Shown here: in pieces, positions 18,183 through 27,420 of the stretch
Layout of the letters: the number at the start of each line of letters is the position of its first letter
How positions within the stretch are numbered: the first letter of the stretch is position 1
Origin: Thermoleophilia bacterium
GTDB taxonomy: Bacteria > Actinomycetota > Thermoleophilia > Gaiellales > Gaiellaceae
DNA: 64,000 bases
NCBI GenBank assembly: GCA_017882615.1
Contig: JADGPD010000002.1
Span: 24,027 to 88,026, forward strand
Reading direction: 5' to 3'
Notes under the pieces: generated by a model
The model's input: the letters and a program-made list of their open reading frames with translations, nothing else
What the model was told of the DNA's origin: nothing
The model's database searches: none
Program-made: the position numbers and the translations under genes

Positions 18183-19187
18183 TCAGCCCCCGCTGGCGAA
18201 GGAGCGGATCGATTGCCGGAGCGATCTCGTCGCGGCGGCCACCGCGGTCGGCTCGTAGCCGCAATGAGCGAGACAGTTGGCGCAACGGGGGTCGCGGCCG
18301 CGGCCGAACTTCTCCCACTCGGTCGTCTCGAGCAGCTCGGCGTAGGAATCGACATAGCCGTCCGCCATCAGGTAGCAGGGACGCTGCCAGCCGAAGAGCG
18401 TGTAACACGGGATGCCCCAGGCCGTGCAATCGAACTCGGCCTTCCCTTCCAGGAAGTCGAGGAAGAGCGGTGTGTGGTTGAAGCGCCAGCGCTTCCGCGC
18501 GCCGTCCGAGAAGAGCTCGCGGAAGAGCTCGCGCGCCTCCTCGACGCCGGGGAAGTGCTGCTGATCGGGCGCCTGCTCGTAGGCGAAGGCCGGCGAGATC
18601 ATCATCGAGTCGACGCGAAGCTCGTCGTTCAAGAAGTCGAGTAGCGCTCGTACGTCGGTGACGCTGTCGGCGCTCGAGACCGTCGTGTTGGTCGTCACCT
18701 TGAAACCGCGCCGCTTTGCCTCGCCGATCGCCTCGACGGCCTTGTCGAACACTCCCTCGCGACCGACCCCGGCGTCGTGCCGCTCACGCAGACCGTCCAA
18801 GTGAATGACCCAGGCGAAGTAGGGCGAGGGCCGGAAGAGGTCGAGCTTCTTCTTCAGCAGGATGCCGTTCGTGCACAGGTAGACGAACTTCTTGCGCGCG
18901 ATGAAGGCCCGAACCATCTGCCCGATCTCTGGATGGATGAGCGGCTCGCCGCCTGCGATCGAAACCATCGGGGCGCCCGACTCCTCGATCGCCTCGAGCG
19001 CCTGGGCGACCGGCATGCGCTGGCGCAGAACGTCGCTGGGATACTGGATCTTTCCACAACCGGCGCAGGCGAGATTGCACTGAAAGAGCGGCTCGAGCTC
19101 TACCAGGAGCGGATAGCGCCGGCGCCCGCGCAGTCGCTGCGAGAACAGGTAGCTGCCCATCTTGAGGCTCTGCCGCAGGGGGATCAT
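18183..19187 (-). CDS. hpnH: Adenosyl-hopene synthase, radical SAM protein HpnH
   Basis: EPLFQCNLACAGCGKIQYP, SIAGGEPLIHPEI, YLCTNGILLKKKL; in hopanoid operon, ATGA overlap with upstream gene. Confidence 0.92.
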   Translation of the reverse strand: MIPLRQSLKMGSYLFSQRLRGRRRYPLLVELEPLFQCNLACAGCGKIQYPSDVLRQRMPVAQALEAIEESGAPMVSIAGGEPLIHPEIGQMVRAFIARKKFVYLCTNGILLKKKLDLFRPSPYFAWVIHLDGLRERHDAGVGREGVFDKAVEAIGEAKRRGFKVTTNTTVSSADSVTDVRALLDFLNDELRVDSMMISPAFAYEQAPDQQHFPGVEEARELFRELFSDGARKRWRFNHTPLFLDFLEGKAEFDCTAWGIPCYTLFGWQRPCYLMADGYVDSYAELLETTEWEKFGRGRDPRCANCLAHCGYEPTAVAAATRSLRQSIRSFASGG

Positions 19188-20689
19188 TGCTCGGTCAGTT
19201 CCCTAGGGAGGCGGAATTGAAGCGACTCGGTTGTGGCTCGCTCCTCGCTCACGGTCACATCGCCCATGCTACTGATGACCTCGATCAGGCGGTCGACCAG
19301 CCGCTGCGGCGCCGAGGCTCCCGCGGTCACGCCAACCGTCCCCGCGCCCTTGAGCCAGGCAACGTCGACCTGGCTCTCGTCGTCGACGAGATACGCAGGT
19401 GTTCCCTCCCGCTGCGCCACCTCGACCAGCCGACGCGAGTTGGAAGAGGTGCGCGAGCCGACCACCAGCACCACGTCGGAGTCGCGCGCGATCGCGCGCA
19501 CAGCGTGCTGACGGTTGCCCGTCGCGTAACAGATGTCATCGGATCTCGGGCCTTGCAGGGCCGGGTAGCGGCGCCTCAAAGTCCCGACGATCTCGTTCGT
19601 CTCGTCGACGGCCAATGTCGTTTGCGTCAAGAAGCTGACCTTGTCGGGATCGGCGGCCAGGGCGCTCTCTGCGTCGGCCACGCCGCCGATCAGCACGATC
19701 GACTCGGACGCTTCGCCCTTCGTTCCCTCGACCTCCTCGTGCCCGGCGTGCCCGATCAGGAAGATCGTGTCGCCGCGAGCGGCGAATCGGCGCGCTTCAG
19801 CATGCACCTTGCTCACGAGCGGGCAGGTGGCGTCGATCACCTCGAGCCCGCGCTCTTTCGCCGCTCGCCTGACCGCCGGCGAGACGCCGTGAGCCGAGAA
19901 GATGACGACCGCGCCCTCGGGCACCTCGTCGAGCTCGTTCACGAAGACGGCGCCGCGGCTCTCCGCCTCGGCGACGACGTGCTCGTTGTGGACGATCTGC
20001 TTGCGAACGTAGATCGGCGCCCCGCGCCGCTCCAGCACCAGGTTGACGATCTCGATCGCGCGCTCGACGCCGGCGCAGAACGAGCGCGGCGCAGCGAGCA
20101 GCACCTGCCTGGGCTCGATCGCATCCAGCCACTCGGGCAGGGCCGCGCCGGCCCGGCGCAGGTTGCGCAGGGCGCGCAGGCCCGCGAACGGAGTGCGCGG
20201 GCCGAGCAGGCGCTTTCCCGCCGCATCCACGACGACGCGGAGCACGGCCACGGGCCGGCCGTCCGCCGCCTCGGCCAGCCAGGCCGATTCCATGTCCGCC
20301 GCCACCACTCCCTGGGCCGCTAGCGCCTCGCGCTCGTCTCGACCGACGATGTGCTCGCTGGAGAAGATCGGGCCGGCGTGAACGCGCAGGCCGCGGCGGC
20401 GCAGTGCCGCGATCAAGAGAGCGCTCGCGGGCGTCGGAATCGGCTCGGCTCCGTCACGTCGCAGTTCGGTCGCGCAAACGATGTCACCCGCTCGCAGCTC
20501 GCTCGAGACGCCTGCGCAAAGCCCAACGATCGCCACTGCCTTGGCGTTCTCGACCGCCAGGCCGCGCGCCGCCGCGATCCGAGCCCGCTCGGCTCCCATG
20601 CCCGAGCGCAGTACTCGCCACTCGGGTCGCGCCTTGAGTGCAGCCTGCTCGACTCGCAACGGAGCGAAGACGAGCAGCGAGCTGCTCAT
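19184..20689 (-). CDS. ispH: Fusion: HpnG-like nucleoside phosphorylase domain + 4-hydroxy-3-methylbut-2-enyl diphosphate reductase (IspH)
   Basis: N-term MSSSLLVFAPLRVEQAAL...VAADMESAWLAEA; C-term VLLAAPRSFCAGVERAIEIV, SAHGVSP, DATCPLVSKVH, GHAGHEEVEGTKGEA, CYATGNRQ, GSRTSSNSRRL, GVTAGASAP; ATGA overlap with shc sets start at 20689. Confidence 0.9.
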   Translation of the reverse strand: MSSSLLVFAPLRVEQAALKARPEWRVLRSGMGAERARIAAARGLAVENAKAVAIVGLCAGVSSELRAGDIVCATELRRDGAEPIPTPASALLIAALRRRGLRVHAGPIFSSEHIVGRDEREALAAQGVVAADMESAWLAEAADGRPVAVLRVVVDAAGKRLLGPRTPFAGLRALRNLRRAGAALPEWLDAIEPRQVLLAAPRSFCAGVERAIEIVNLVLERRGAPIYVRKQIVHNEHVVAEAESRGAVFVNELDEVPEGAVVIFSAHGVSPAVRRAAKERGLEVIDATCPLVSKVHAEARRFAARGDTIFLIGHAGHEEVEGTKGEASESIVLIGGVADAESALAADPDKVSFLTQTTLAVDETNEIVGTLRRRYPALQGPRSDDICYATGNRQHAVRAIARDSDVVLVVGSRTSSNSRRLVEVAQREGTPAYLVDDESQVDVAWLKGAGTVGVTAGASAPQRLVDRLIEVISSMGDVTVSEERATTESLQFRLPRELTEQ

Positions 20690-22551
20690 TCCTCCGCTCC
20701 CAGGATGCGACCGAGCGCCATCACCGGGAAGATCTGCCGGTAGAGGTGATAGTTGAGGTTGAAGTCCCAGGGGAAGCCCGTTCCTGTGAACTGAGGCTCG
20801 TCCCAGCCACCATCCGGCCGCTGCGCCTGCACCAGCCAGTCGACCGCGCGCCAGGCGGCCTCGTTCAGCTCGCCGGCGGCGTGGAAAGCAAGAAGCGCCC
20901 AGGCCGTCTGTGAGGCGGTCGAGTCGCCGCGGCCGCGCCAACTGGGATCGCTGTAGGAGCGCATGTCCTCGCCGAAGCCGCCGTCGGAGTTCTGGATCCG
21001 CTCGAGCCAGGCCAGCGCGCGGCGAACGCTCTCGTGCTCGGTCAGTCCCAGGGCGGCGAGCGCCGGCACCGCCGCGCCCGTCCCGTAGATGAAGTTCGCG
21101 CCCCAGCGCCCGAACCAGGATCCATCCGGTTCCTGCGCCTCGAGCAGCCAGTCGAGCCCGCGCCTCGTCTCGCACAGATCGCCCATGCCTTCGCGCCCGA
21201 GCATCTCGAGCACGTGCGCGGTCACATCCGCGCTGGGCGGATCGGTGACGGCGCCGAAGTCGCAGAAGGGCAGCCTCGCGGCAAGCCGGCTCGTGTTGTC
21301 GACGTCGAAGGCCGCCCAGCCGCCGTCCTTGCTCTGCATGCCGAGCGTCCAGGCCAGGCCGCGTTCACAGGCGTCGTCCGACGGCTCGTCGCCGGGCAGC
21401 GCGCGGCGCAGGGCCGGGATGACGATTGCCGTGTCGTCCACGTCGGGGTAGTTGTCGTTGGCGAACTCGAACGGGAATCCGCCCGGCTCGAGCTTCCGCC
21501 GGCGTACCGACCAGTCGCCGCGGACGCGCACCTCGCAGGAAACCAGCCAGCGGGCGGCGCGCTCGAGCCGGGGGTCGATCGGCGCCAGGCTCGCGTCGAG
21601 CAGAGCCAGCACCGCCAGCCCCGTATCCCAGACCGGCGACTGGCAGGCCTCGATCCTCCGCCCCTGCTCGTCCTCGATCGTGAAGATGTCGAGACCCGAG
21701 AGCGCCTTCGCCAGAGCCGGGTCGTCGAGCGGGCGGCCGAGTGCGTGCAGGGCCACGATCGACCACACCCAGGGCGGCTGGATCCCGCCCCAGGAGCCGT
21801 CGTTCTCCTGGCGATCGAGTACCCAGCGCTCGGCGCGGCGCAGGGCGCGGCGGCGCAGCGCACCGACCGGTCGGCGCTCGTAGCGGTGAAGGGCACTGTC
21901 GAGCCCTACGAAAAGGCGATCCCAGACGTCGTTGATGCGCGGCGCCGAGCTGGCGCCCGTGCGCAGCTCGTCGATCGCGAAGGGCGAGCCGGCCTGCGGC
22001 TTGAGCGCGCTGACGATCGAGAGGGCGACGATCGTCTGCCTCGCCCAGCAGCCGAAGGTGTAGACGCTGAACGGAGCGCGCGCGGGAAGCATGATCTGCT
22101 CGGGTGGCAGCATCGGCACGTCCTCCCACGACCAGAGCCCGAGCAGCGAGAGCCACATGCGCGTGAAGACGCGGCTGCGCTCGACGCCGCCGTTTGCGCG
22201 AATCAGGATCGCCGCCCGGCGCATGTGCTCGGCCTCGGGAGGATCGCCGGCGAAGCGCAGCGCCAGATAGGCCTCAACCGTGGTGGAGAGATCGAACGGG
22301 CCACCGTAGAAGGTCGCCCAGCTTCCGTCCTCGCGCTGCCGCGAGCGGATCCAGTGTGCGCTCGACTCTGTTTGCTTCCGATCGAGGATGTCGAGGTAGT
22401 AACGGAGGAAGAGATCCTCGGCGTCGATCGTGACGTTCGTCTCGAGCTCGCCCTTCCACCAGCCGTCGGGGTGTTGGAGATCGAGCAGGTGCGCGCGGGC
22501 ACGCTCGAGCGTCGTCCGGGCGGACTCGAGAGCGGGAGCGGCTATCGCCAT
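20686..22551 (-). CDS. shc: Squalene-hopene cyclase
   Basis: DVDDTA (DxDD) motif, repeated QxxDGSW-type (QW) motifs, C-terminal GTGFPWDFNLNYHLYRQIFPVMALGR. Confidence 0.97.
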   Translation of the reverse strand: MAIAAPALESARTTLERARAHLLDLQHPDGWWKGELETNVTIDAEDLFLRYYLDILDRKQTESSAHWIRSRQREDGSWATFYGGPFDLSTTVEAYLALRFAGDPPEAEHMRRAAILIRANGGVERSRVFTRMWLSLLGLWSWEDVPMLPPEQIMLPARAPFSVYTFGCWARQTIVALSIVSALKPQAGSPFAIDELRTGASSAPRINDVWDRLFVGLDSALHRYERRPVGALRRRALRRAERWVLDRQENDGSWGGIQPPWVWSIVALHALGRPLDDPALAKALSGLDIFTIEDEQGRRIEACQSPVWDTGLAVLALLDASLAPIDPRLERAARWLVSCEVRVRGDWSVRRRKLEPGGFPFEFANDNYPDVDDTAIVIPALRRALPGDEPSDDACERGLAWTLGMQSKDGGWAAFDVDNTSRLAARLPFCDFGAVTDPPSADVTAHVLEMLGREGMGDLCETRRGLDWLLEAQEPDGSWFGRWGANFIYGTGAAVPALAALGLTEHESVRRALAWLERIQNSDGGFGEDMRSYSDPSWRGRGDSTASQTAWALLAFHAAGELNEAAWRAVDWLVQAQRPDGGWDEPQFTGTGFPWDFNLNYHLYRQIFPVMALGRILGAEE

Positions 22552-23928
22552 CTAGCTCGATCCCTTCGAAAGAGGAGCAAGCTCGGGGCGTCCTCCGGCC
22601 GAGGAGGCGGCGGAGAGATCGGCGAGCGCGAGCTTCGCGGCCGCCAGCCCACTTCGAACGGCGCCTTCCATCGTCGCCGGCCAGCCGGTGTCTGTCCAGG
22701 CGCCGGCCAGGTAGAGGCCGGGCAGATCGGTGCCTGTGACCGGGCGCAGCCGCCGCGAGCCCGGAGTGGCGCGGAAGGTCGCACGCGGCTCACGCGTAAC
22801 GGCAAGGTCGAGCAACTCGGCGCTCGCGGCGGCGGGTAGCAGGCGCGCGATCGCGGGCACGAAGCGCTCGCGCAGCGCCCGAAGCGGCAGGCGGATCTCA
22901 TCTCGAGCGGCCGAGAGAGAGATCGTTACGAGCTGGCCGTGACTGACACGCGAAGCCGAGGTGCGATCGAACATCCACTGCACGGGCGAGTCGAGCGCGG
23001 CGACCATCGGTTCGGCGAGCACCGTCCGATCGTAGTGCAGGTGGAGGTTGACGATCGGGCTCGCTCCGAGCCGCTCGAGGGCGTCGGCATCGACCGCGCC
23101 CGCGGGCAGAAGGCCAGGGGCAACCTGATGAGGGACGGCGCAGATGACGACATCGGCCTGCTCGGCACCCTGCTCCAGCTCCAGCCGAAAGCCGCTGCGC
23201 TCGCTTCCGACGGCGCGCACCGGGGCGCCAAGCTCGAGCCGCACTCCTGCGTCCGCGAGCGCCACCGCGGCCGCCTCGCCGTGCAGTTCTTGCAGCGGTA
23301 CTGTCGCCGCGCCGATATCGCCCCCGTCCGTCGTCTCGAGCAGAGCGGTCCGAAAAACCTTGAGTGCGGAGGCGAGCGACGCTTCGGCGGCGCGAAGATT
23401 GAGCGTCGCGAGTGCGATCAGCTCCCAGAGCGCGGTGACGGAACGATCGGACTGCCCGTGCCCGTGCAGCCATTCAGCGAAGCTCTGCTCGTCCAGTGCC
23501 GGGCTGTCCGGATCGAGCCGGCGCATCGCAGCCGCGGCGCGCAGAGCCGCAAGGCGCTCTCCCAGCGTGAGCGGGCGGTAGCGCAGCAGGCTGGACACGA
23601 GTTGCAACGGGGCGGGCAGACCGCTGCGCCGCAAAAGCGCGAGCCGGCCCTCCTCGCGCAGAACGGGAACTCGCAGGCGCGGCTGCAGACTCACCAGCTC
23701 GCCGACGCCGAGCCGTTCGAGAAAGCCGAGATAGGCGCTGCAGGCGCGCACGAAAACGTGCTGGCCGTTGTCGATCCAGTGGTCGCGGCGCCGGACCGAG
23801 AACGTGGCGCCGCCGAGCCGCGTTCGCGCCTCGTAGAGCGTCACGTCAGCGCCGGCGTCTGCACACTCGAGCGCCGCGGCCAAGCCGGCCAACCCACCGC
23901 CGACAACGGCGATCCGGTCGCCGCTCAA
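22552..23928 (-). CDS. hpnE: Hydroxysqualene dehydroxylase (squalene-associated FAD-dependent desaturase)
   Basis: IAVVGGGLAGLAAALECADAGADVTLYEARTRLGG; terminal LPGLYLAGAWTDTGWPATMEGAVRSG. Confidence 0.93.
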   Translation of the reverse strand: MSGDRIAVVGGGLAGLAAALECADAGADVTLYEARTRLGGATFSVRRRDHWIDNGQHVFVRACSAYLGFLERLGVGELVSLQPRLRVPVLREEGRLALLRRSGLPAPLQLVSSLLRYRPLTLGERLAALRAAAAMRRLDPDSPALDEQSFAEWLHGHGQSDRSVTALWELIALATLNLRAAEASLASALKVFRTALLETTDGGDIGAATVPLQELHGEAAAVALADAGVRLELGAPVRAVGSERSGFRLELEQGAEQADVVICAVPHQVAPGLLPAGAVDADALERLGASPIVNLHLHYDRTVLAEPMVAALDSPVQWMFDRTSASRVSHGQLVTISLSAARDEIRLPLRALRERFVPAIARLLPAAASAELLDLAVTREPRATFRATPGSRRLRPVTGTDLPGLYLAGAWTDTGWPATMEGAVRSGLAAAKLALADLSAASSAGGRPELAPLSKGSS

Positions 23929-24770
23929 AGAGCCGCCCTCACCAGGCTGCGTGCGAGCACCCAGGCCTTCTCGCTGCTGCGAAGCGACATGCGCCCCCGG
24001 AGCACCTTGGCCGGGTTCGAGGCGATTCGCTCGAGCAGGCGCCGGTATGCGCCCGCCATCGCGAGCACGCAGGCGGCGCTGCGCCGGTCGAGCAGCGGTA
24101 CGAGCTCGAGGCCGTGCTCGTACCAGGCCAGCCCACGTTCAGCCTCGTACGCGACGACGAGCTCGATCGGCCCCTCCATCCGCCCCGCGATAATCCGGCA
24201 CCCGAACCGCTCGAGATCCTCCTCGGGGAGGTAGCGGCGCCCGCGGCTGGTGTCCTCGCACAGATCGCGCAGTATGTTCGTGATCTGAAGCGCGACTCCG
24301 AGATCGTCGGCGAGTGAGCTCGCCTTCTCGCGATCGTCCGTAATAAAGACTCCGAGCGAGAGCCGACCGATCGAGCCGGCCACGCAGCGGCAATACTCGA
24401 CCAGTTCCGGGAAGCTGGCGTAGGTGCGCCCGCGCACGTCCATCTCGGCGCCGTCGATGAGTTCGCCGAAGGCCGTCAGCGGGATCGGATAGCGCTCGGC
24501 GGCGTCCGCCAGCGCGGCCAGCACGCGATCGTCTCTCTCCTCAGGGGAGCGCTCGAGTTGCTCTCGCAGCGAGTTCAGCTGTCCCAGCTTCTCGTCGCGC
24601 GGTAGAGCGCCGTCCGCGATGTCGTCGATCCGGCGCGCCAGCGCGTACACGGCGAAGATCGCCTCGCGCCTATCGGCCGGGAGAATGCGCATGCCCGCGT
24701 AGAAGCTGGAGCCGGAAGTGCGCACGAGCTTGCGGCAGTGCTCGTAGGCCTGTTCGGTAGCGACGCTCAT
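23925..24770 (-). CDS. hpnD: Presqualene diphosphate synthase HpnD
   Basis: RRIDDIADG, NILRDLCEDTSRGRRYLPEEDL; start set at 24770 by ATGA overlap with hpnC. Confidence 0.92.
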   Translation of the reverse strand: MSVATEQAYEHCRKLVRTSGSSFYAGMRILPADRREAIFAVYALARRIDDIADGALPRDEKLGQLNSLREQLERSPEERDDRVLAALADAAERYPIPLTAFGELIDGAEMDVRGRTYASFPELVEYCRCVAGSIGRLSLGVFITDDREKASSLADDLGVALQITNILRDLCEDTSRGRRYLPEEDLERFGCRIIAGRMEGPIELVVAYEAERGLAWYEHGLELVPLLDRRSAACVLAMAGAYRRLLERIASNPAKVLRGRMSLRSSEKAWVLARSLVRAAL

Positions 24771-25636
24771 CTTCCCGTCCCGAACGCGCGCAGGATCAGT
24801 AGAGCGCGGCGGAGGCGGCTCACCGGCGGCGGCCCTGCAAGCACATCGAAGCCTTTGGCGGCGATGCCGTCGAGCGCCGCGCGACCGCCGCCGACGTAGC
24901 CGGCCACTGCCAGACGGGCACGGCCGCGCAGGCGCCCAACCAGCGGAGCGCCCTCGTCGAGCAGCGCGCGGGCGCGCTTCACCTCGAAGGCAAGGAGGCG
25001 GCGCAGGGCATCGTCCGCCTGCACAGCACCAAGCTCGATCGCCTCGACACCGAACTTCTCGAGATCTTCCGCCGGGATGTACACGCGTCGGCGGCCGTAG
25101 TCCTCGGCGACGTCCTGCCAGTGCTCGGCGAGCTGAAGCGCGCTGCAAATCCGGTCGGAGAGCTCGATTCGGTCGGTCGTCGCCTGCCGAAAGACGTACA
25201 GGACGAGCTCGCCGACAGGGTTGGCCGAGAGATCGCAGTAGGCGAGCAGCTCGTCGAAGGTCTCGTAACTCTCCTTCTCCTGGTCGCGCCGGTTCGCTTC
25301 GATCAGGCGCAGGAACGGGTCGCGGGGAAGATCCAGCGCTCGCACGGTAGGCGCGAGCCGTTTCAGGATCGGGTGCTCGGGCTCGCCCGAGAACGCCCGC
25401 TCGAGGTCCTGCTGGAGTCGGTCGAGCAGCGCGAGCCGGTCTCCCTCAAGCTCGTCTCCGATCTGGTCGGCCAGGCGCGCGAAGCCGTATATCGCCGTCA
25501 GGTGAGAGCGCGTCCTCGGTCCGAGCAGGAACATCGCCACGGGGAAGTTCTCGTCGGCGGCGAGCGGAAGGATCGCTCCCTCGCCCGGCAGGTCTCCAGC
25601 ACGCTCCCCAGCTTCTCGGCCGAACGCTTCCGTCAT
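24767..25636 (-). CDS. hpnC: Hydroxysqualene synthase HpnC
   Basis: YGFARLADQIGDE, EHWQDVAEDYGRRRVYIPAEDL. Confidence 0.92.
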   Translation of the reverse strand: MTEAFGREAGERAGDLPGEGAILPLAADENFPVAMFLLGPRTRSHLTAIYGFARLADQIGDELEGDRLALLDRLQQDLERAFSGEPEHPILKRLAPTVRALDLPRDPFLRLIEANRRDQEKESYETFDELLAYCDLSANPVGELVLYVFRQATTDRIELSDRICSALQLAEHWQDVAEDYGRRRVYIPAEDLEKFGVEAIELGAVQADDALRRLLAFEVKRARALLDEGAPLVGRLRGRARLAVAGYVGGGRAALDGIAAKGFDVLAGPPPVSRLRRALLILRAFGTGR

Positions 25637-26001: not shown

Positions 26002-27420
26002 ATGAAAGCGATGAGAGAGACGTCCAACGCGAGCGAAAGCAAGCCCTCCGAGGAAGCCTTCAACCTCGGAGCGCTGGTGGCACGCCGCCGCAAAGAGGCG
26101 ACCGAGCTCTGGGCGAAGACGATCAATCCCCAGTTCGCTCGCGTCCTCAGGACGATCGGCTTCGATCGCGAGTGGGCGCGCGCCGAAGGCGCCTACCTCT
26201 GGGACGCCGACGGGAACCGCTACCTCGACATGCTGGGCGGGTTCGGAATGTTCAACGTCGGACGAAACAATCCGCGTATCCGCGCCGCCCTGATCGAAGC
26301 GCTCGAGCTGGACCTCCCCGGCTCGGTTCAGATGGGCACGACGGTGCTTCCGCCTTTGCTCGCCGAGGCTCTGCTGGCCCGAACGCCGGCGCGGCTCGAG
26401 CGCGTTCTTTTCACCAGCAGCGGCACCGAGGCAATCGAGGCGGCGATCAAGCTCGGCCGCGCCGCGACCAAGCGAGCGCGAGTCATCTCGGCCGAGCACG
26501 GTTTTCACGGCCTTACGCTGGGCTCGCTCTCGGTCAACGGCTGCCCCGAGTTCACCAGCAGGTTCGGACCGCTTCTGCCTGATTGCGAGCGCGTCCCATT
26601 CGGCGATCTCGAAGCGCTGGAGCGCGAGTTGCGGCGCGAGGACGTGGCCATCTTCCTGGTCGAGCCGATTCAGGGCAAGGGCGTCAACCTGCCGCCGCCG
26701 GGATACCTGGAGGGAGCGCAGGAGCTCTGCCGCCGCTACGACACTCTCTTCTGCGTCGACGAGGTGCAAACGGGCCTAGGCAGGACGGGGAAGCTGTTTG
26801 CCTTCGAGCACTGGGGCCTCGAGCCCGACATGGTGCCGGTGGCGAAGTCGCTTTCTGGCGGCTACGTGCCCGTCGGCGCGCTGATCATGTCCAAGGCCGT
26901 GCACGAGGCGGTTTTCGACGGCATGGAGAACGCTCTCAGCCACGGCTCGACCTTCGCGCCCAACGAGCTGGCCATGGCAGCGGGCCTGGCGACCCTGCAC
27001 GAGATCGACACGCAGAAGCTGGTCGAACGAAGCGAGCGGCTGGGCGAGATGCTGCTCGAGCTCGGCGGGCGCCTGGCAGCACGCCACGAGGTCGTCAAGG
27101 AGGTTCGCGGGCGCGGCCTGATGTGGGCGATCGAGTTCGCCGAGCCGCCTTCGGGGAGTCGCACCTACCGGGCTATCGAGCGGATTCAACCGGGCCTGTT
27201 CGCCCAGTTTGTGATCGGCCCGCTCTTCTCGGAGCACCGCATCCTGTCGCAGGTCGCCGGTCACTCGATGGCGGTGATCAAGGTGCTCCCACCCCTGGTC
27301 GTCTCCGACGAGGACATCTCCTGGCTGGAAGACGCTCTGGACGACTCGATCGCCAAGGCTCAGCGCCTACCTCGTTCGCTGACGAGACTCGCGCTCGGCT
27401 CGCTGCGCGCATTCTCGTAG
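26002..27420 (+). CDS. hpnO: Class III PLP aminotransferase, probable HpnO-like
   Basis: FTSSGTEAIEAAIK, FCVDEVQTGLGRTGKLFAFE, VAKSLSGGYVPVGA; divergent from hopanoid operon. Confidence 0.7.
   Translation: MKAMRETSNASESKPSEEAFNLGALVARRRKEATELWAKTINPQFARVLRTIGFDREWARAEGAYLWDADGNRYLDMLGGFGMFNVGRNNPRIRAALIEALELDLPGSVQMGTTVLPPLLAEALLARTPARLERVLFTSSGTEAIEAAIKLGRAATKRARVISAEHGFHGLTLGSLSVNGCPEFTSRFGPLLPDCERVPFGDLEALERELRREDVAIFLVEPIQGKGVNLPPPGYLEGAQELCRRYDTLFCVDEVQTGLGRTGKLFAFEHWGLEPDMVPVAKSLSGGYVPVGALIMSKAVHEAVFDGMENALSHGSTFAPNELAMAAGLATLHEIDTQKLVERSERLGEMLLELGGRLAARHEVVKEVRGRGLMWAIEFAEPPSGSRTYRAIERIQPGLFAQFVIGPLFSEHRILSQVAGHSMAVIKVLPPLVVSDEDISWLEDALDDSIAKAQRLPRSLTRLALGSLRAFS

Follow-up and report, generated by a model that had tools for sequence, protein, structure and literature searches.

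In the hopanoid pathway, HpnH adds a deoxyadenosyl radical to diploptene and HpnG then removes the adenine (reviewed in PMC12583986). In subdivision 1 of the Acidobacteria, ispH has been reported to cluster with shc and hpnH (PMC5462960). In IspDF, isoprenoid enzymes that are not consecutive are fused (PMC13001223), and IspH itself also occurs joined to ribosomal protein S1 (NF000907). Here, we analysed a stretch of 64,000 nucleotides from a bacterium of the Thermoleophilia (hereafter the window), in which an HpnG-type nucleosidase and IspH are encoded in one frame within a hopanoid operon. As in the Acidobacteria, and in a genome of the window's own family (G295, see below), an ispH has been recruited to hopanoid genes, but there it remains one of two genes whereas here we find a single protein. 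Like IspDF, the fusion joins isoprenoid enzymes that are not consecutive; yet both IspDF activities lie within the MEP pathway, whereas one activity of the fusion belongs to the far end of a different pathway. The S1 fusion likewise provides IspH with an extra domain, but its partner is unrelated and C-terminal. With the standalone HpnG of Streptomyces-type operons the fusion shares the slot between shc and hpnH, the PNP fold, the DMES motif and the catalytic aspartate, and the domains are 36-42% identical; it differs in that its HpnG domain, of about 190 residues, is joined to IspH. Relative to the IspH/LytB families (TIGR00216, PF02401), it scores above the cut-offs and is alike in the cluster and substrate residues checked and in the E. 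coli fold, but it carries an N-terminal nucleosidase domain and stands in a clade apart from canonical actinobacterial IspH (100/99).

The fusion is an open reading frame of 501 amino acids on the minus strand (19184-20689) with no internal stop. Its ATG at 20689 overlaps the stop of shc and its TGA overlaps the ATG of hpnH at 19187, both as ATGA, which places it between these two genes. Translation and overlap thus bear out the uninterrupted, shc-coupled frame proposed in an earlier sequence-only reading. The domain search proposed there finds both domains in the 501 residues: PNP_UDP_1 at residues 26-159 (44 bits, Pfam cut-off 25.1) and LYTB at residues 196-472 (311.1 bits, cut-off 24.5). 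The ADMESAW motif on which the nucleosidase assignment was based is present, and the claim of a complete IspH with the expected cysteines (C205, C289 and C387) holds, the NCBIfam model TIGR00216 being passed as well (303.5 bits, cut-off 187.85). The genes hpnC, hpnD, hpnE, shc and hpnH are all above their NCBIfam cut-offs (5/5) and the fused domain provides hpnG, so that the operon set is complete (Table 1). The divergently transcribed aminotransferase is 49-51% identical to the aminotransferase adjoining hpnH in other actinobacterial hopanoid clusters (tblastn; L115, L120, L202); because of this identity, it is a possible HpnO-type enzyme, which would serve the synthesis of aminobacteriohopanetriol.

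Table 1. Features of the hopanoid locus in the window, and loci of stub-bearing IspHs in other genomes.
Feature	Position	Strand	Basis
hpnH, radical-SAM adenosylhopane synthase, ATGA-coupled to fusion	18183..19187	-	TIGR03470 505 bits, cut-off 225
IspH domain, residues 194-501 and stop codon	19184..20110	-	LYTB, TIGR00216; rmsd 1.4-1.6 A to E. coli IspH
C387, third [4Fe-4S] ligand (E. coli C197)	19529..19531	-	29/29 fusions
C289, second [4Fe-4S] ligand (E. coli C96)	19823..19825	-	29/29 fusions
C205, first [4Fe-4S] ligand (E. coli C12)	20075..20077	-	29/29 fusions
HpnG-type nucleosidase domain, residues 1-190	20120..20689	-	PNP_UDP_1 44-50 bits; TIGR03468; AlphaFold domain resembles MTA/SAH nucleosidases in PDB
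D155, candidate catalytic aspartate, MTAN Asp197 position	20225..20227	-	at least 90% conserved; profile alignment to MTAN
DMES motif, residues 132-135	20285..20296	-	E134 aligns with conserved MTAN 'MEx' glutamate (profile alignment)
E14, candidate equivalent of MTAN Glu12	20648..20650	-	invariant in 29 fusions; equivalence inferred from position
shc, squalene-hopene cyclase	20686..22551	-	TIGR01507 737 bits
hpnE, hydroxysqualene dehydroxylase	22552..23928	-	TIGR03467 408 bits
hpnD, presqualene diphosphate synthase	23925..24770	-	TIGR03465 278.7 bits, barely above cut-off
hpnC	24767..25636	-	TIGR03464 306 bits
Class-III aminotransferase, divergent from hpnC	26002..27420	+	PF00202
Stub IspH loci: L028, L029, L030, L032, L033, L034, L042, L043, L048, L050, L056, L069, L070, L072, L075			

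One result counts against the HpnG assignment: the fusion scores 72-75 bits with the HpnG model TIGR03468, below its cut-off of 187.1. Nevertheless, of the nucleosidase models this one scores best with the window domain, and all of 26 homologues match it. Its cut-off is reached by none of the 36 genomes tested, a named Streptomyces included, and is also missed by the standalone HpnG of genomes with the order shc-hpnG-hpnH-ispG-dxs; low scores are common to standalone actinobacterial copies. Context, fold and active-site residues are the grounds for the assignment as a putative HpnG. In 29 fusions E14, D132 and E134 are invariant, M133, S135 and D155 are at least 90% conserved, and a profile alignment to MTA/SAH nucleosidases pairs E134 and D155 with their conserved glutamate and aspartate. 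Loss of the HpnG active site is ruled out by these residues. In the other half, the 13 IspH active-site residues checked, i.e. the cluster cysteines and the HMBPP site, are identical in all 29 fusions. Hence, judging from their residues, both domains look active. Both are also under purifying selection, with pairwise dN/dS of 0.20-0.43 for HpnG and 0.18-0.28 for IspH, values that are approximate given the simple method and the high GC content. The faster evolution of the HpnG domain counts against a bifunctional protein.

Are these domains made as one protein? Two proteins might arise from internal initiation or processing, or the single frame might result from an overlooked frameshift. In favour of the former, several homologues have an in-frame GTG near the junction, including the window at V196, and this counts against a single product. 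The window GTG has no clear ribosome site, GTG and TTG codons are scattered among homologues, and an ATG lies within about 10 codons of the junction in just 2 of 28 of them; a conserved internal start is rejected on this count. Internal initiation thus seems unlikely, because no start codon is conserved at the junction. A missed frameshift or stop, which the sequence-only reading had named as what would overturn it, is excluded by the identical frame in isolates and MAGs of many genera: since the fused frame recurs in many independent assemblies, isolate genomes included, neither chance nor a sequencing artefact can account for it. The AlphaFold model of the whole chain (pLDDT 93.1, pTM 0.90) is a single rigid two-domain structure, whose high-confidence fold continues across the junction, the C-terminal helices of HpnG running directly into the first strand of IspH with no flexible linker. 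Its N-terminal domain matches MTA/SAH nucleosidases in the PDB (E about 1e-9), and its C-terminal domain superposes on E. coli IspH with an rmsd of 1.4-1.6 A. Altogether, an artefact of any of these kinds is extremely improbable.

The fusion is frequent. A survey for IspH proteins with an N-terminal PNP domain, as the sequence-only reading had proposed, found about 35 actinobacterial loci with both domains in one frame among the matches listed in a scan of GTDB genomes; in about 30 of the loci among these matches the fusion adjoins hpnH, and shc lies upstream if the contig extends that far. In a phylum sample of 297 genomes, 3 have a full-length match, the window genome among them. In a sample of 296 genomes of the class of genome G023, HpnH is present in 73 (called at E < 1e-120), and the full-length fusion in 42, all of them within these 73, against none of the 223 HpnH-negative genomes (Fisher p 2e-31, a statistic that ignores relatedness). 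It covers 14 of the 19 HpnH-positive genera of this sample. The 31 HpnH-positive genomes without it comprise 27 of one genus (g44) and 4 others, which carry a separate hpnG. This genus is probably Streptomyces, given its gene order shc-hpnG-hpnH-ispG-dxs. The fusion is thus the rule in most sampled hopanoid-making actinobacteria outside one large genus, probably Streptomyces. Two short IspH fragments lie directly before hpnH in other genomes (G335:C7:182320-182562 and G322:C118:29805-29930) and resemble decayed fusions. A record assigned to Melainabacteria (L035) clusters with fusions from actinobacteria; its contig may have been mis-binned.

What might such a protein be for? The sequence-only reading had suggested a check for a second ispH, and the window genome (a draft of 2.04 Mb in 106 contigs, 91% complete) indeed holds one canonical copy with an intact frame (G000:C50:2859-3680). 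It also has one ispG and one dxs above cut-off, both outside the hopanoid locus, and in this draft the fused HpnG is the sole HpnG-like gene found. A canonical ispH is present in most fusion-bearing genomes as well. Because the genome holds this separate copy, the fused IspH is probably an isozyme dedicated to one pathway, that of hopanoids. The wide conservation of the fusion with HpnH supports a real two-domain enzyme of this pathway. We put at about 0.8 the probability that it is truly bifunctional, with both activities in an uncleaved polypeptide, the benefit of which we infer. Adenosylhopane from the neighbouring HpnH is most likely stripped of its adenine by the N-terminal domain, which yields ribosylhopane, whereas the C-terminal domain would reduce HMBPP to IPP and DMAPP by means of the [4Fe-4S] cluster. 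The gain is most likely that an IspH isozyme specific to the pathway is expressed with the operon at a fixed 1:1 ratio, and housekeeping isoprenoids would be served by the separate canonical IspH. Of the earlier proposal, the two-domain enzyme stands, given the domain assignments, the single frame and the conservation with HpnH. The idea that it couples precursor supply to tailoring finds no support here: the reactions are not consecutive and have no common substrate, and what we found shared is just the gene, the stoichiometry and the operon. Since these reactions lie far apart in the pathway, direct channelling between the domains is unlikely.

Genome G295 (L137/L205), of the window genome's family, has the unfused order shc-hpnH-hpnG-ispH, in which the hpnG stop and the ispH start overlap as GTGA in different frames; its HpnH is rather divergent (42%). 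This overlapping pair is a likely image of the pre-fusion state, and the fusion was probably born by the joining of such overlapping genes within a hopanoid operon. The clusters of Acidobacteria subdivision 1 indicate repeated recruitment of ispH to hopanoid loci. One might then regard the fusion as a neutral joining of neighbours, in which the domains remain independent and the joining adds nothing to what comes from the operon. The reactions are not consecutive, the genes are adjacent and overlapping yet separate in a genome of the same family, and genomes with shc-hpnG-hpnH-ispG-dxs do without the fusion and use other MEP genes instead. But the fusion is kept in 14 of the 19 HpnH-positive genera of the class and deeper in the phylum, which suggests that it is favoured or hard to undo. 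We regard neutrality as a serious contender, at somewhat less than even odds. The opposite view is that the domains are functionally integrated, through a shared electron donor, docking with HpnH or ligand sensing across domains. IspH and HpnH both require low-potential electrons, the fusion and hpnH are usually adjacent, and the relative placement of the domains is confident in the AlphaFold model, with no flexible linker between them. Yet a lineage described below retains the IspH active-site residues with just a stub in place of the nucleosidase, and we consider integration improbable. Standalone HpnG proteins (L115-L123, L190-L194) end in W..R.LLLPRR or RNVLLPRR, resembling the fusion junction PRRVLLA; these tails might possibly be scars of gene fission, but they are too short to claim this.

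A more radical possibility is that the C-terminal domain reduces a hopanoid intermediate instead of HMBPP, e.g. by turning ribosylhopane into bacteriohopanetetrol. The enzyme of this step is unknown according to the review PMC12583986, and the domain is joined to the very enzyme that would make ribosylhopane. But every HMBPP-site residue that we checked is invariant, close relatives of the domain are encoded in terpene operons that do not serve hopanoids and contain dxs and ispG, and bacteriohopanetetrol-type lipids are reported in groups where hpnG and ispH are listed as separate (PMC5462960). We reject this role on the conservation of the HMBPP site, and see hardly any chance for it.

These close relatives provide a second, unexpected result. 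In a tree of 83 IspH domains, canonical actinobacterial IspH is set apart from a second clade (each 100/99), which contains all fusions together with IspHs lacking a full HpnG domain. The latter fall into a single group (98/88), next to the fusions of actinomycetes. The tree favours fusions that are paraphyletic to this group without establishing it, as a single fused clade is not rejected by the AU test (p 0.117). Fifteen members of the group have about 85-130 extra N-terminal residues, an HpnG-derived stub (Table 1): its alignment matches the fused HpnG domain with an hhalign probability of 98.4% and a pairwise E of 4e-15 over 52 columns. The nucleosidase active-site motifs are absent from this alignment, and Pfam gave no credible match for the stubs in the three tested. 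AlphaFold predicts a compact fold for stub residues 20-112 (block pLDDT 66-96), but a structure search with this model returned IspH matches only and no PNP, so that the origin of the stub rests on the profile comparison. Its dN/dS, again approximate, is 0.46-0.82, versus 0.16-0.27 for the attached IspH, as expected of a weakly constrained relic or a fast-evolving domain.

Genes of the group without a full HpnG domain are often found with those for a family 2B encapsulin shell, polyprenyl transferase cargo and terpene cyclase cargo, and with dxs or ispG; several genomes hold canonical, stub and hopanoid-operon IspHs together. Shells that go with terpene cyclases and polyprenyl transferases are described in an encapsulin survey (PMC8346489); a term search found no IspH in the main text of this paper or of PMC12407261. 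It is very likely that the extra IspHs of encapsulin operons share ancestry with the hopanoid HpnG-IspH fusion. As the tree is not decisive, the main argument for a fused ancestor is that a homologous N-terminal piece sits at the same junction. One might speculate that, after descent from the fusion, a folded remnant without nucleosidase activity was retained in a new role, for instance in docking to the prenyltransferase or to the shell. This is rather unlikely, and the new role is speculative because the remnant evolves fast and has been lost in some members.

In a search that covered the open PMC library, we found no description of an HpnG-IspH fusion, of an HpnG remnant or of ispH in encapsulin operons. 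The protein consists of two known enzymes in a conserved fusion, and it may possibly have been catalogued earlier. Its interest is that the last MEP enzyme and a hopanoid tailoring enzyme form a conserved fusion that is apparently standard in many hopanoid-making Actinomycetota, which suggests that hopanoid synthesis in these bacteria has an IspH of its own. Surveys that assume separate hpnG and ispH genes may miscount hpnG in such bacteria. IspH is a bottleneck in terpenoid engineering, for which the fusion offers a natural enzyme. Through the HpnG remnant in encapsulin-operon IspHs, two terpenoid systems of actinobacteria would be tied by common ancestry, and this connection did not turn up in the open PMC literature searched.

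Two further loci (L079 and L080) have minus-strand frames of about 460 residues that encode very divergent IspH-like proteins (37% identity) with a stub-like N-terminus. The L079 protein keeps the three cysteines but has lost the equivalents of H41, H124, E126, S225 and N227, and for this reason is probably no HMBPP reductase. An ordinary ispH, accompanied by dxs and ispG, is found near its gene.
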